From Bartonella sp. DB5-6 (lineage in GTDB: Bacteria; Pseudomonadota; Alphaproteobacteria; Rhizobiales; Rhizobiaceae): a stretch of 64,000 nucleotides of DNA. Both the position numbers and the translations under genes were made by a program. The notes beneath the pieces are model-generated. The model was not told the DNA's origin. It worked only from the letters and a program-made list of their open reading frames with translations, and ran no database searches. Every line of letters starts with the position of its first letter. Position 1 is the stretch's first letter. Location: assembly GCF_000278115.1 (NCBI RefSeq), contig NZ_JH725114.1, positions 14,598 to 78,597 on the forward strand, read 5' to 3'. Positions 1-6,549 of this stretch are shown here, in pieces.

Positions 1-126
1 CGCTGGCGCCTCTGATCTCGCTGGAGATGTTTGCAATGCCCTTGATGACGATGCTCGTACTGGTGCTACTGGCTGCGCTGCTGCTGTCTGCACTGGCGCT
101 TCTGATCTCGCTGAAGATATTTGCGC
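1..126. repeat. 90-bp-period imperfect repeat inside the hbp low-complexity block
   Basis: The stretch at 1-34 recurs at 91-124 with few substitutions (shared core TCTGATCTCGCTG), giving a period of 90 bases, or 30 codons. On the coding strand both copies include the residues RSEAP. The array probably continues left of the window, so the copy number is unknown. The unit length is a multiple of three, so gain or loss of a copy would keep the frame. Confidence 0.7.
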
Positions 127-783
127 TGAACTTACTCCTTGTGCAGGTCTTCCCGATGAAGTGATTCTTCTTGTCTCGGATGACGATGCTGCTGCTGGCT
201 TCGTTGCTGTTGCAGGTGCTGTTGGTGTTGTTGATGAGCCTCCTGATGGCGCTGATGGTGTTTCTACAGTTGAAGTCGTTGATGTTTGTGTACTTTTTGC
301 TGCTGGAGTTGAATTCGTTGATACTGTTGTTGTTGGTGGTGTTGGTGTTGTTGGTGAAGCTGATCTGCGAGATCTTGCTATTAAATTGTCTACTGCCGCA
401 TTACCAGAGGCGCCGATAGTGATGGTCTTTGTCTGCTTTTGCCTAGACCAAATTAAATCCGTATCGATACCAAAAACAAAGCTATCACCAAGATCAATAT
501 TAGAACCTGCGTAAAAACCCCCTTCAAAACCTGAAAGCTTAAACGATAAATCTTTATGTAGCGGTATAATTTTATCCTTATCAATACCACTCATATCAGG
601 TTTACTTAAAAAACCACCAACTTGTCCACCCAAGTAAAAACCTGACCATGTAAAAGTAGGGGCTACAAAAGCTGTTGAGGTAGCTGTTGTAGGTTGATGA
701 GGAACAATTACATCAGCTGCCTTCGTTGCAGAAGCTGAAATCAAAGCAAAAATAGATGCCGTTATTAAACATTTCGTATTCAT
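1..783 (-). CDS. Hbp/Pap31-family outer-membrane haem-binding protein with Ser/Thr/Pro/Ala-rich loop, 3' end outside window
   Basis: The minus-strand frame from the ATG at 781-783 stays open for 261 codons to the window edge, so the C-terminus is missing. Residues 1-23 are a signal peptide ending ATKA, followed by ADVIVPHQP. Then come the family's first-strand motif WSGFYLGGQVGGF and the second-strand motif GFYAGSNIDLG, as in the two complete paralogues downstream. GGAG lies 8 bases before the ATG. From about residue 141 the sequence becomes almost pure Ser, Thr, Pro and Ala with imperfect 30-residue repeats, at the point where the paralogues have a predicted surface loop. Hbp proteins of Bartonella are 8-stranded barrels that bind haemin at the cell surface; that role here is inferred from the family. 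The low-complexity block makes the protein unusually long. Confidence 0.85.
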   Translation of the reverse strand, partial: MNTKCLITASIFALISASATKAADVIVPHQPTTATSTAFVAPTFTWSGFYLGGQVGGFLSKPDMSGIDKDKIIPLHKDLSFKLSGFEGGFYAGSNIDLGDSFVFGIDTDLIWSRQKQTKTITIGASGNAAVDNLIARSRRSASPTTPTPPTTTVSTNSTPAAKSTQTSTTSTVETPSAPSGGSSTTPTAPATATKPAAASSSETRRITSSGRPAQGVSSAQISSARSEAPVQTAAAQPVAPVRASSSRALQTSPARSEAPA

Positions 784-837
784 AAAATATCTCCAAATAT
801 CCAAAACGGGTTATATGTAGTGCATCTCTTTCAAAAT

Positions 838-858
838 ATCTGTAGCAAAAATGATACA
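838..858 (-). promoter_or_regulatory. Conserved hbp upstream element, copy A
   Basis: The 21-base plus-strand stretch beginning ATCTGTAG lies 55-75 bases upstream of the leftmost hbp start. It matches copies at 1876-1896 and 3052-3072 except at two positions. A promoter element called the H-box, bound by the iron response regulator Irr, is described for Bartonella quintana hbp genes. Position and conservation suggest this is the same element, but I am matching from memory rather than by alignment. Confidence 0.6.
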
Positions 859-862
859 TTCA

Positions 863-899
863 CAAAAAAAATAGAGGCCTCGCCAAAAACGAAGCCTCT
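863..899 (-). terminator. Rho-independent terminator of the 941-1819 hbp gene
   Basis: On the minus strand AGAGGCTTCG and CGAGGCCTCT form a stem around a T-rich loop, followed directly by A and eight Ts. It sits about 40 bases past the hbp stop codon. Confidence 0.8.
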
Positions 900-940
900 T
901 AGAAATTTAATTTTGTATTAACAATTTCGTTTTTACAAAA

Positions 941-1819
941 TTAGAATTTGTAAGCTACACCAACACGGAAATCATTAGTCTTATAGTTGAATTCAGCGTC
1001 ATCCTTTTCGAATTTCTTTTTACCATAATCGGAGTAACGATATTCTGCACGCAATAAAACATTATCAGTCATTGCAAAATCAACACCACCACCAATGGTG
1101 AAACCAACCATTGTCATGGTTTTATCAGATTCTTTATTAGAAACTTTTTTACCGGATGCATCTGTTCCTGAAACTGTAGCAATACCTTGCATCTGTGCAT
1201 AAGCAACACCACCAGCAATATAAGGCATAATGCGGTCAGCAGCAGCAAAACCAATACGTACCCGCGTAGCACCGGACCATTTTTCTTTAAATGTAAAACT
1301 TTCCTTGGTTGTAGCACCTGCTAAAACTGCTGCATCGCGAATTCTGAGAGCCTTCTCAACTCCATTACCTTCTAAGTTATGTTCCTTATCTTTATCACCA
1401 CCTCCGTTATGTTCCTCATCTTTATCACCACCTCCGTTAGGCTTTTCAACTTCATGATTGTGAAGAACAGAGATCGTTTTTGTTTCTCCTCGGTCAGCCC
1501 AAACTGCATCGGTTTCAAGACCTAGAATGAGACCACTTCCAAGGTCTATATTAGAACCTGCATAAATACCACCTATGAAACCGGAAGGCTTAGGTGTATC
1601 ATCTTTGCTGAAAAGTTTATTTTTTGTAGCCGGATCAGTTATCTCAACCTTACTCGAAAAACCACCGATCTGCGCACCAAGATAAAAACCTGTCCAAGAA
1701 AAAGCAGGTGCTGTAATAACTGGTGCACTTTCACGAGGAATGATAACATCAGCAGCCTGTACCGCAGAAGCTGAAATCAAAGCGATAACAGAAGTTGTCA
1801 TTAAAGATTTTATATTCAT
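941..1819 (-). CDS. Hbp/Pap31-family outer-membrane haem-binding protein
   Basis: The 292-residue protein has a signal peptide (residues 1-22, ending VQA), the motif SWTGFYLGAQIGGF, and repeated amphipathic strands. It ends VGVAYKF, a terminal aromatic signature of outer-membrane barrels. The family binds haemin and probably protects or feeds these haem-auxotrophic bacteria; that function is inferred from the family. GGAG stands 10 bases before the ATG. The predicted second external loop (residues about 115-155) is enlarged and contains a tandem 10-residue repeat rich in Gly, Asp, Lys, Glu and His. The gene is one of three tandem paralogues, each with its own upstream element, which suggests separate promoters. 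This one is followed by its own terminator. Confidence 0.92.
   Translation of the reverse strand: MNIKSLMTTSVIALISASAVQAADVIIPRESAPVITAPAFSWTGFYLGAQIGGFSSKVEITDPATKNKLFSKDDTPKPSGFIGGIYAGSNIDLGSGLILGLETDAVWADRGETKTISVLHNHEVEKPNGGGDKDEEHNGGGDKDKEHNLEGNGVEKALRIRDAAVLAGATTKESFTFKEKWSGATRVRIGFAAADRIMPYIAGGVAYAQMQGIATVSGTDASGKKVSNKESDKTMTMVGFTIGGGVDFAMTDNVLLRAEYRYSDYGKKKFEKDDAEFNYKTNDFRVGVAYKF
1381..1440. repeat. Two tandem 30-bp units in the hbp surface-loop coding region
   Basis: Units 1381-1410 and 1411-1440 differ at only two or three positions. They encode the adjacent peptides NGGGDKDEEH and NGGGDKDKEH. The unit length preserves the reading frame. Placement in the predicted loop between barrel strands suggests variation by copy-number change. 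Confidence 0.9.
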
Positions 1820-4540: not shown

Positions 4541-5161
4541 TCAGTTATGCGCAAAAATATCAACCTCCGACCATCCTAAAAGATCGAGTCTTGCCCTCAT
4601 AGGTAAAAATTGAAAACATGCCTTTGCAACATTTTCTCGCTCTTCACGTCTTAAGCGTTCTTCAAATATATCTTTTAAACGATGCAAATATAAAACATCT
4701 GATGCGGCATATTCAATTTGCGCACGTGATAAAGTTTCTGCGGCCCAATCTGAAGATTGCTGCTGTTTAGAAATATTTACATTTAGCAATTCACCACAAA
4801 TTTCCTTTAATCCATGACGATCCGTGTAGGTACGCGTGAGTTTTGAAGCAATTTTTGTACAAAAAACTACATCTGGCATAACGCCAAATGTATGCGCTAA
4901 AATAGAAAGGTCAAAACGTCCAAAATGGAATATCTTAGTGATTGCCTTATCTTCAAGCAACTTGACTAAATTGGGAGCATTTTTTTGCCCTTTAGCAATC
5001 TGTATAATGTCAGCAGTACCATCTCCAGAAGAAAGCTGAACAACACATAAACGATCACGGTGTGGTTGTAATCCCAAAGTTTCTGTATCAATTGCAACAG
5101 CATTAACTTGATAATTATCCAAATTTGGTAAATCGCCTTGATAAACGCGGATTTCAGTCAT
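4541..5161 (-). CDS. rnd: Ribonuclease D-like 3'-5' exonuclease (DEDDy)
   Basis: The 206-residue protein has the DEDDy exonuclease motifs: DTETLG with metal ligands D25 and E27, FGRFD with D84, and YAASD with Y151 and D155. It has only the nuclease domain. The HRDC domains of the roughly 375-residue E. coli RNase D are missing, as is common for the short rhizobial paralogue. The expected role is 3' trimming of structured RNA such as tRNA precursors. The gene overlaps the upstream peptidase gene by four bases (ATGA), so the two are probably translationally coupled. A strong terminator follows. Confidence 0.85.
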   Translation of the reverse strand: MTEIRVYQGDLPNLDNYQVNAVAIDTETLGLQPHRDRLCVVQLSSGDGTADIIQIAKGQKNAPNLVKLLEDKAITKIFHFGRFDLSILAHTFGVMPDVVFCTKIASKLTRTYTDRHGLKEICGELLNVNISKQQQSSDWAAETLSRAQIEYAASDVLYLHRLKDIFEERLRREERENVAKACFQFLPMRARLDLLGWSEVDIFAHN

Positions 5162-6549
5162 TTATCCCTCTTATTTGCTAAAGCTGCAAGAATTCGTGCC
5201 CAAGACCGCTGCCCTTTATGAAACGATTTTAAATTATACTTTTCATTAGGTGAATGAATACGGTCATCAGCTAGTGCAAAACCAACCAAAACAGTTTCCA
5301 TATCAAGAATTGACTGAAAATCTCCAACTATGGGAATCGAACCACCCATAACTGTTAATAAAGCTGGATTACTCCACTCTTGCGATAAAGCATCCTTCGC
5401 TGCCTCAATAAAAGGAGAATCATAGGGAAGCTGAATTGCTGGAGAAGCACCATGCCCCTTAAACGCAACCGTACAGTCAGCAGGAATAAGGCTACGCACA
5501 TAATCACGAAAGGCCTGACGTATTTTTTCTGGATCTTGCTTATGTACTAAACGGAAAGATACTTTTGCACTCGCTTGAGAAGCAATAACTGTTTTAATCC
5601 CTTCTCCCTCATAGCCACCACTAATACCATTAATTTCTGCTGTAGGACGCGCCCATACGAGCTCTAAAACGCTTCGTCCTTTTTCACCAGCAGGGATGGA
5701 AAGCCCAATAGGACCAAGAAAATTTTCAGCAGTACAATTAAGTTCGTTCCATGATTGCAAAATATGTGGAGGTGTTTCTTCTACTCCATCATAAAAACCA
5801 GAAAGTGTTACCCTATTATTTTCGTCATGCATTCCTGCCAAAACTTTAGCTAAAATACGAATGGGATTGGCTGCAGCGCCTCCAAAATAACCAGAATGTA
5901 AATCACGATTAGCCGCTGTGATAATAATCTCTTCTGCCATGATACCCCGAAGAGCAACTGAAACAGATGGTGTATCTGCATCCCACATCGACGTATCACA
6001 AACCAATGCGCAATCAGCCCTAAGCTCATCCTTATTTGCTTTCAAAAAAGGAATAAGTGAAGGAGAAGCACATTCTTCTTCACCTTCACATAAAACAGTA
6101 ACCTTAACAGGAAGCTGCCCTGTTTCTTTCTTAAATGCACGACACGCTTCAATAAAAGTCATGAGCTGACCTTTGTCATCTGAAGCTCCACGAGCACAAA
6201 TAACTTTCTCTCCATCTCTCTCTTTTAAAGAAGGTGTAAACGGATCATCTTCCCATAAACTCAGCGGATCAACAGGTTGAACATCATAATGTCCATAAAA
6301 CAACACATGTAGACAATCATCTGAAGGTCCCGGATGATGCCCGACAACCATCGGGTGACCAGGTGTATCGCGCCGTGAAGCTTCAAAGCCTATGCTTTTT
6401 AAATCCTCTACTAACCAATCAGCTGCTTTACGACATGCATCCTTATAAGCGGGGTCTGTAGAAATCGATTGGAAACGTAAAAGGGAAAAAAGGCGTTCAA
6501 GGCTCTTTTCTATATTCTCATCAAGATGTGTTAGTATTTTATTCAGCAT
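5158..6549 (-). CDS. M20-family dipeptidase/deacylase
   Basis: The 463-residue zinc metallopeptidase belongs to the ArgE/DapE/carboxypeptidase G2 clan. The metal-binding segment YGHYDVQPVDP is near residue 87, the catalytic pair CEGEEE follows near residue 155, and a dimerisation/lid domain occupies the middle third. It lacks a signal peptide, so it acts in the cytoplasm. The family hydrolyses dipeptides or N-acyl amino acids; the substrate cannot be told from sequence. GGAGGT lies about 8 bases before the ATG. It is first of a two-gene unit with the RNase D-like gene. Confidence 0.88.
   Translation of the reverse strand: MLNKILTHLDENIEKSLERLFSLLRFQSISTDPAYKDACRKAADWLVEDLKSIGFEASRRDTPGHPMVVGHHPGPSDDCLHVLFYGHYDVQPVDPLSLWEDDPFTPSLKERDGEKVICARGASDDKGQLMTFIEACRAFKKETGQLPVKVTVLCEGEEECASPSLIPFLKANKDELRADCALVCDTSMWDADTPSVSVALRGIMAEEIIITAANRDLHSGYFGGAAANPIRILAKVLAGMHDENNRVTLSGFYDGVEETPPHILQSWNELNCTAENFLGPIGLSIPAGEKGRSVLELVWARPTAEINGISGGYEGEGIKTVIASQASAKVSFRLVHKQDPEKIRQAFRDYVRSLIPADCTVAFKGHGASPAIQLPYDSPFIEAAKDALSQEWSNPALLTVMGGSIPIVGDFQSILDMETVLVGFALADDRIHSPNEKYNLKSFHKGQRSWARILAALANKRDK

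Follow-up and report, generated by a model that had tools for sequence, protein, structure and literature searches.

The closest described relative of the gene analyzed here is HbpB of Bartonella henselae and B. quintana, and the available part of a report on the B. henselae Hbps (PMC3483173) states that all four bound haem on blots, that none transports haem and that all assist HemR. HbpB is described there as larger than the other Hbps, with an additional central portion, and of the four it promoted HemR-dependent uptake of haem in E. coli most strongly; at 1 µM haemoglobin the halo was 1.84 cm for HbpB and 1.22 for HbpD, and it was unmeasurable for HbpA and HbpC. The authors tie this stronger effect to a higher level of HbpB in E. 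coli and used His-tagged recombinants; according to the same part of PMC3483173, neither western blots nor proteomics detected HbpB in B. henselae, and its discussion mentions an earlier claim of no haem binding by B. quintana HbpB. Because Hbps with a short loop bind haem too, the long loop examined below is unnecessary for binding. According to the available part of PMC3799009, hbpB and hbpC of B. quintana rise under conditions like those of the arthropod gut (haem high, temperature low, oxygen high), and hbp promoters contain an H-box to which Irr binds. HbpB and its extra central part are already known, and what is new here is the two-part anatomy of this insert; in the open-licence PMC literature we found no description of a His block, spacer turnover, a polybasic motif or furin-like features of Bartonella Hbps.

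The window analyzed here is a stretch of 64,000 nucleotides from Bartonella sp. DB5-6 (G000:C1:14598-78597), and the adjoining left-hand stretch (L009) was examined together with it. The 5′ part of the hbpB orthologue (261 codons) occupies window positions 1-783 on the minus strand, with its start codon at 783-781, and the 3′ part is found beyond the left edge of the window, at L009:4595-5498, with the stop at 4595. The two parts are separated by 100 N directly before window base 1 (L009:5499-5598), the usual size of a scaffold gap, and this gap falls inside the repeat of hbpB. The frame would shift if the 100 N were counted literally; the contig ends flanking the gap have 28 identical bases in common, and an overlap that long is compatible with a single frame. 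Left of the gap, the gene continues on the minus strand with more repeat, a His/Gly block, barrel strands 4-8 and the VGVAYKF end at L009:4598, and ileS is the next gene after its 3′ end. The return to barrel strands and the VGVAYKF end, for which the initial annotation had proposed to look in this direction, were thus seen, and a truncated hbpB gene was ruled out, since the reading frame is taken up again beyond the gap and the barrel is completed. Right of the gap, the frame reads directly, as first described, an Hbp-like signal peptide and first barrel strands, followed by S/T/P/A-rich sequence from residue 142. The signal peptide (about residues 1-22, MNTK...ATKA; 718-783, minus strand) was recognized from the sequence and is common to our Hbp alignment A1, with a putative cleavage site. 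Strands 1-3 (about residues 48-122) would lie at 418-642 of the minus strand when mapped from a model of the B. florencae orthologue, and Hbp-like residues 1-141 end in the motif RSRRS (361-375, minus strand), which forms the N-terminal base of the insert. The right-hand 120 residues of an S/T/P/A-rich hypervariable spacer, starting at residue 142, take up 1-360 on the same strand, and 70 more stand left of the gap. The two halves of an Hbp barrel, one read on each side of the gap, flank a long central insert.

Judged from its sequence, the gene is the HbpB orthologue of Bartonella sp. DB5-6, because the published B. henselae hbpB primers (available part of PMC3483173) match exactly, at both gene ends (5189-5211 and 6344-6364), the locus L080, whose long-loop gene is kept beside ileS and belongs to our orthologue set. 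Our survey covered 71 Bartonella genomes, one per species, and in 42 of them, namely the genome of the window gene and 41 others, the hbp cluster ends next to ileS with an hbpB orthologue; at the stretch upstream of ileS it was absent in the remaining 29, among which L107 yielded no parsed Hbp. The insert first noticed in this single gene is therefore real and is not peculiar to it, being shared at ileS by 41 other genomes. In the ileS tree, which has 70 rows because L101 (short ileS) is absent from it, the 42 hbpB genomes make up one side of a branch (42/70 rows, support 99/95, 98% of 200 bootstrap trees), and a single origin therefore fits. The ileS gene is broken by in-frame stops or a frame break at G037:C1:208324-209000 and G041:C1:75246-75925, through either assembly error or pseudogene formation.

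An AlphaFold2 model of the B. florencae orthologue, based on the 24-row alignment A1, has eight strands, and the insert stands between strand 3 (103-123) and strand 4 (386-405); pLDDT is mostly 80-96 in the barrel blocks and almost always below 50 at residues 147-363. Comparison of the model by VIA gave OmpA at Z 17.0 (rmsd 2.3, 166 residues aligned) and OmpW at Z 16.7 (rmsd 2.7, 172 aligned); Foldseek with the whole model gave matches of low TM, which were less informative than VIA. In an OmpA-like topology, the loop between strands 3 and 4 is extracellular loop 2. The barrel is predicted to anchor HbpB in the outer membrane, and the insert to be disordered and extracellular; the model and the frame reading agree with the original proposal that sequence of low complexity has been inserted, in frame, into one of the surface loops of a haem-binding barrel. 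Among Pfam models, the C-terminal half matched OMP_b-brl at 36.7 bits (cut-off 28.7), Porin_2 at 44.6 (cut-off 22) and Opacity at 25 (cut-off 21), the last being a broad barrel model from which we claim no Opa membership. The N-terminal half alone reached 20.6 for Porin_2, under the cut-off of 22, and an NCBIfam search gave sub-cut-off matches only.

Loop 2 is 128-434 aa long with 4-16 His in the 41 other orthologues, the shortest being that of L089 (128 aa by recount; an early anchor made the script print 175). In the paralogues of the window it has about 75 aa in HbpA (941-1819, 4 His) and about 55 aa by count in the gene at 2158-2991, whose loop had rightly been called short. The other Hbps parsed at the ileS locus mostly have a loop 2 of about 55 aa with 0-3 His; a few reach 75-96 aa by script, some of them via anchoring at an earlier motif, and one at L105 has 132 aa and no His. 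The insert is missing from the two neighbouring paralogues of the same genome and from the other Hbps parsed at the ileS locus of the 41 other genomes, and all Hbp counts cover the proteins recognized by the script anchors. Loop 2 of HbpA contains a two-copy repeat, NGGGDKDEEH / NGGGDKDKEH (window about 1374-1440, minus strand), and loop 2 of neighbouring Hbps in other species contains (NTN)n, (KEPG)n, (ETP)n or (PGTDDK)n; since repeats occur in loop 2 of several Hbps, this loop is a general expansion site. Between the hbpA and hbpC orthologues, window positions of about 1920-2157 are non-coding and, on visual inspection, similar to the 3′ terminus of an hbp gene. In some relatives this interval holds an additional intact hbp, and the segment looks like a decayed hbp paralogue.

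In the 42 of 71 genomes, which form one clade, the insert as read from translations has two parts, a low-complexity spacer and then a His block, and this anatomy is new in this survey. The spacer is about 22-315 aa long across the orthologues, and its composition over 41 loci and 6956 aa, the gap-containing gene of the window being kept outside these statistics, is S 18.6%, A 18.5%, T 11.5%, P 9.7% and H 0.1%, with no Cys and almost no aromatic residues. The spacer of the window gene has at least 190 residues (120 right and 70 left of the gap), of which S/T/P/A account for 67%. The His block (41 loci, 2411 aa) is composed of G 18.8%, S 16.8% and H 16.3%; it contains 5-14 His in 40 gap-free orthologues, 2 in L061 and 13 in the window gene, that is, at least five in 41 of the 42. 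The initial annotation regarded the insert as mucin-like; it is so in composition and only in part, since the C-terminal portion behind the gap is the His/Gly block. In the window gene this block has 81 aa and six NPH, and its NPHGSG repeats form a perfect 18-bp array (L009:5170-5239). Of the His residues in the loops, 396 of 482 stand 40-120 residues before strand 4, and NPH occurs 59 times in 36 of 41 blocks, against 1.4 in shuffles (maximum 5). HH is depleted relative to shuffles (23 vs 60) and H.H shows no enrichment (56 vs 60), a pattern unlike a classical metal-chelating tract. A conserved segment lies between the His block and strand 4. When the segment preceding strand 4 was searched outside Bartonella in 297 genomes of the family, 69 matched, and among the matches listed those in other genera mostly covered strands 4-5 only and are taken as ordinary Omp barrels, a few beginning earlier in the query.

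Repeats are frequent in the spacer. The repeat of 30 residues, or 90 bp, reported at the outset is present at the window edge, where copies occupy 1-124 on the minus strand, while two copies left of the gap are spaced by 75 bp; an 80-nt stretch is repeated at 94% identity across the gap. Tandem arrays were found in 26 of 40 orthologous spacers (L089, in which an early His caused the spacer to be scored as 1 aa, was kept outside), and 88 of the 89 TRF rows for these spacers, which partly overlap each other, have periods divisible by 3. The GT-rich tract at 326-356, which the initial annotation suggested as a promoter of slippage, is present but is an imperfect trinucleotide repeat (TRF: 9.7 copies, 84% match), in frame and Thr-rich on the coding minus strand; with this in-frame 3-bp unit and the 88/89 periods, frame-shifting slippage at the tract was ruled out. 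A phase-variable contingency gene was likewise rejected, since no frame-shifting unit was seen and the repeat spacings of the window gene are 18, 75 and 90 bp. Repeat and length variation is present across Bartonella species.

The spacer was compared with its surroundings in pairs of orthologues. Across the 81 pairs with a barrel identity of 90% or more, mean identity was 34% in the spacer (24% when shuffled) and 59% in the His block (29%); the N-terminal part of L067 was short in such comparisons because its start was mis-set. The clearest pair is L066 and L069, which are identical at 99.2% in ileS, 96.9% in hbpC, and 98.8% and 98.4% in the two hbpB flanks, and whose spacers are 72% identical over 73% of the length, with codon shuffles giving means of 63-64% and maxima of 67-69%. 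One breakpoint stands just past RSRRS and the other close to where the His block ends, and dS is 0.451 in the His block vs 0.050 and 0.054 in the flanks, about nine-fold. Since silent sites diverge, selection on amino acids alone is insufficient and recombination accounts for the difference; the comparison points to replacement of spacer and His block via recombination in this pair, although repeat misalignment may inflate dS. As the spacer was replaced between near-identical flanks, slippage alone cannot account for the variation. L069 and L072 have a common 206-bp spacer block at 90%, to which L066 has no match. Four further pairs have a smaller excess (His-block dS 0.148-0.265 vs 0.043-0.166 in flanks), and over 123 pairs the mean dS was 0.43 in the His block vs 0.28 and 0.23 in the flanks. 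For 123 closer pairs (71 for hbpC), dN/dS came to 0.47 in the His block, compared with 0.21 and 0.14 for the two flanks, 0.17 for hbpC and 0.09 for ileS. The spacers of L081 and L088 (flanks 94% and 98%) fall inside the shuffle range (62% vs 61%, maximum 67%). All spacers of the eight pairs with both flanks at 94% or more are above shuffles (70-80%), so turnover is not total. In another pair, L049 and L089, ileS is 98.8% identical and the hbpB flanks are just 82% identical, and the whole hbpB gene has possibly been exchanged. We also considered silent donor cassettes: spacer DNA of G025, searched with at most seven candidates scored per genome, occurred in 17 of 71 genomes, and all 32 places among the matches listed fall inside hbpB genes, and a query of window positions 1-1200 against its own genome matched at hbp places only. 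Within the scope of these matches, donor cassettes were rejected.

The RSRRS position is well kept: among the 42 orthologues the first Arg is present in 42, R..R in 39 and R.[KR]R in 34. At the ileS locus, 33 of the 42 long loops (41 of HbpB and one other) contained R.[KR]R, against 1.2 expected from shuffles, and none of the 153 short loops did. In genomes without HbpB (L119-L136), Hbps elsewhere have long loops of 110-391 aa, nearly all with R-x-[KR]-R. Among 17 loops of at least 100 aa, which were chosen from Hbps with long open frames at other loci rather than taken as a census and which include the near copies L130 and L131, the motif stands in 15 (read by eye in L133) and is missing in L122 and L135; no loop 2 in L139 reaches 100 aa, and L125 has a loop of 75 aa elsewhere that also has the motif. 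Five of the 21 loci examined for this set were read separately from the script. Single shuffle probabilities in this set, computed for 16 of the 17, were 0.01-0.35, none strong alone, and because the Hbp groups are related the motif counts are not independent. The contexts of the motif are largely unalignable in these genomes, with hardly any alignment of the surrounding loop for one group, and their long loops contain between 0 and 7 His, which are scattered, and lack an NPH-rich block. By its pattern (R-x-[K/R]-R, mostly followed by S/T/A), RSRRS might be a proprotein-convertase-like site at which a host or vector protease frees a His-rich arm that stays tied at strand 4, a suggestion that we regard as rather doubtful; the motif may also be a heparan-sulphate- or LPS-binding patch, which would look identical.

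Upstream of the gene, 71 nt before the start codon, a 16-nt element (839-854, minus strand) is possibly the published Irr-bound H-box and is offered as a candidate. By raw counts, matches with 0-3 mismatches lie upstream of all 41 other hbpB genes, the distance being unchanged in 39 of them, and also upstream of 138 among 171 paralogues. Taking the observations together, we favour, with moderate confidence, the view that the HbpB loop forms a flexible arm at the surface, which captures haem or metal and whose spacer has been diversified under selection by immunity or receptors. The His block, exposed as a surface arm, would capture haem or released metal, and captured haem would raise the local concentration for the haem importer or would be buffered in the blood-fed vector gut. 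The spacer would hold the arm off the surface, a role for which its composition would be kept and its sequence not; selection by antibodies or receptors would favour novel spacers, and the spacer may thereby serve also as a changeable face or decoy. Sequence and length of the spacer turn over very rapidly, by in-frame change of repeats and, at least in one clear pair, by recombinational replacement. The L061 orthologue, with only two His in its block, is counted against a capture role. If this view is true, the loop, as a haem- or metal-binding arm whose face can be exchanged, would join the harvest and buffering of haem in blood and vector gut to persistence in an immune host. For sequence users, hbpB in assemblies may be broken or collapsed, as it is in the window.

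Other explanations of the insert were weighed on the same data. Gly/His-rich sequences resemble metal-binding tracts, and the block may accordingly bind Zn, Ni, Cu or Co rather than haem, making a zinc-piracy-like loop on a former haem barrel. ZnuD imports zinc or haem, as the available part of PMC3872050 has it, so the two roles can overlap; however, the depletion of HH and the lack of enrichment of H.H, together with membership of the protein in a haem-binding paralogue cluster, are against metal as the sole ligand, and we consider this reading unlikely. The insert may instead be mainly an immune decoy or a putative glycosylated mucin-like shield in which the His block is incidental. Turnover of the spacer with conserved composition would suit such a role, as would the precedent of the lineage-4 surface antigen CFA, which varies to the strain level and is a target of neutralising antibodies (available part of the review PMC10936683). 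That 41 of 42 orthologues retain at least five His despite a changing spacer does not suit it, nor does the report, in the available part of PMC3483173, that HbpB was undetectable in B. henselae, and this reading too we hold to be improbable.

Neutral drift of low-complexity sequence, tolerated by the loop and constrained to the frame just because the barrel is needed, would explain why loop 2 of other Hbps also gains in-frame repeats such as (NTN)n and (KEPG)n, and frame constraint alone suffices for periods divisible by 3. Drift alone is nevertheless insufficient for the nine-fold silent divergence of L066 and L069 amid near-identical flanks, and it does not explain why His, Cys and aromatic residues are nearly absent over 6956 aa of otherwise diverse sequence; we regard it as quite unlikely. 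An assembly artefact or truncated gene would be suggested by the gap inside the repeat and the frame shift that 100 literal N would cause, but the resumed frame that completes the barrel, the 28 shared bases that fit one frame and the same layout in 41 gap-free orthologues make this extremely improbable. A capturing surface arm with a diversified spacer is the reading that we prefer.

Compared with HbpB of B. henselae and B. quintana, the window gene has the same position beside ileS, the same long central insert missing in other Hbps, and the same Hbp N- and C-terminal parts; it differs in what has been described, the available part of the literature describing HbpB only as larger and as carrying an additional central portion, and the two-part anatomy was not found there. 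With the Hbp paralogues (HbpA/Pap31, HbpC, HbpD and HbpE) it shares the signal peptide, the eight-strand barrel, the VGVAYKF end and the neighbouring genes, whereas their loop 2 typically has about 55 aa with 0-3 His, and R.[KR]R is absent in 153/153 short loops at the ileS locus. Opa proteins of Neisseria have recombining hypervariable outer loops and undergo phase variation by an out-of-frame repeat. They are eight-strand barrels like HbpB (VIA Z 9.1 and 8.1 to Opa60 entries), but no out-of-frame repeat was seen in HbpB, which has a single giant loop with a His block. ZnuD of Neisseria has a His-rich loop and is a TonB-dependent receptor, in contrast to the eight-strand barrel of HbpB. Its likeness to HbpB is that of an outer-membrane receptor tied to zinc and haem (available part of PMC3872050).
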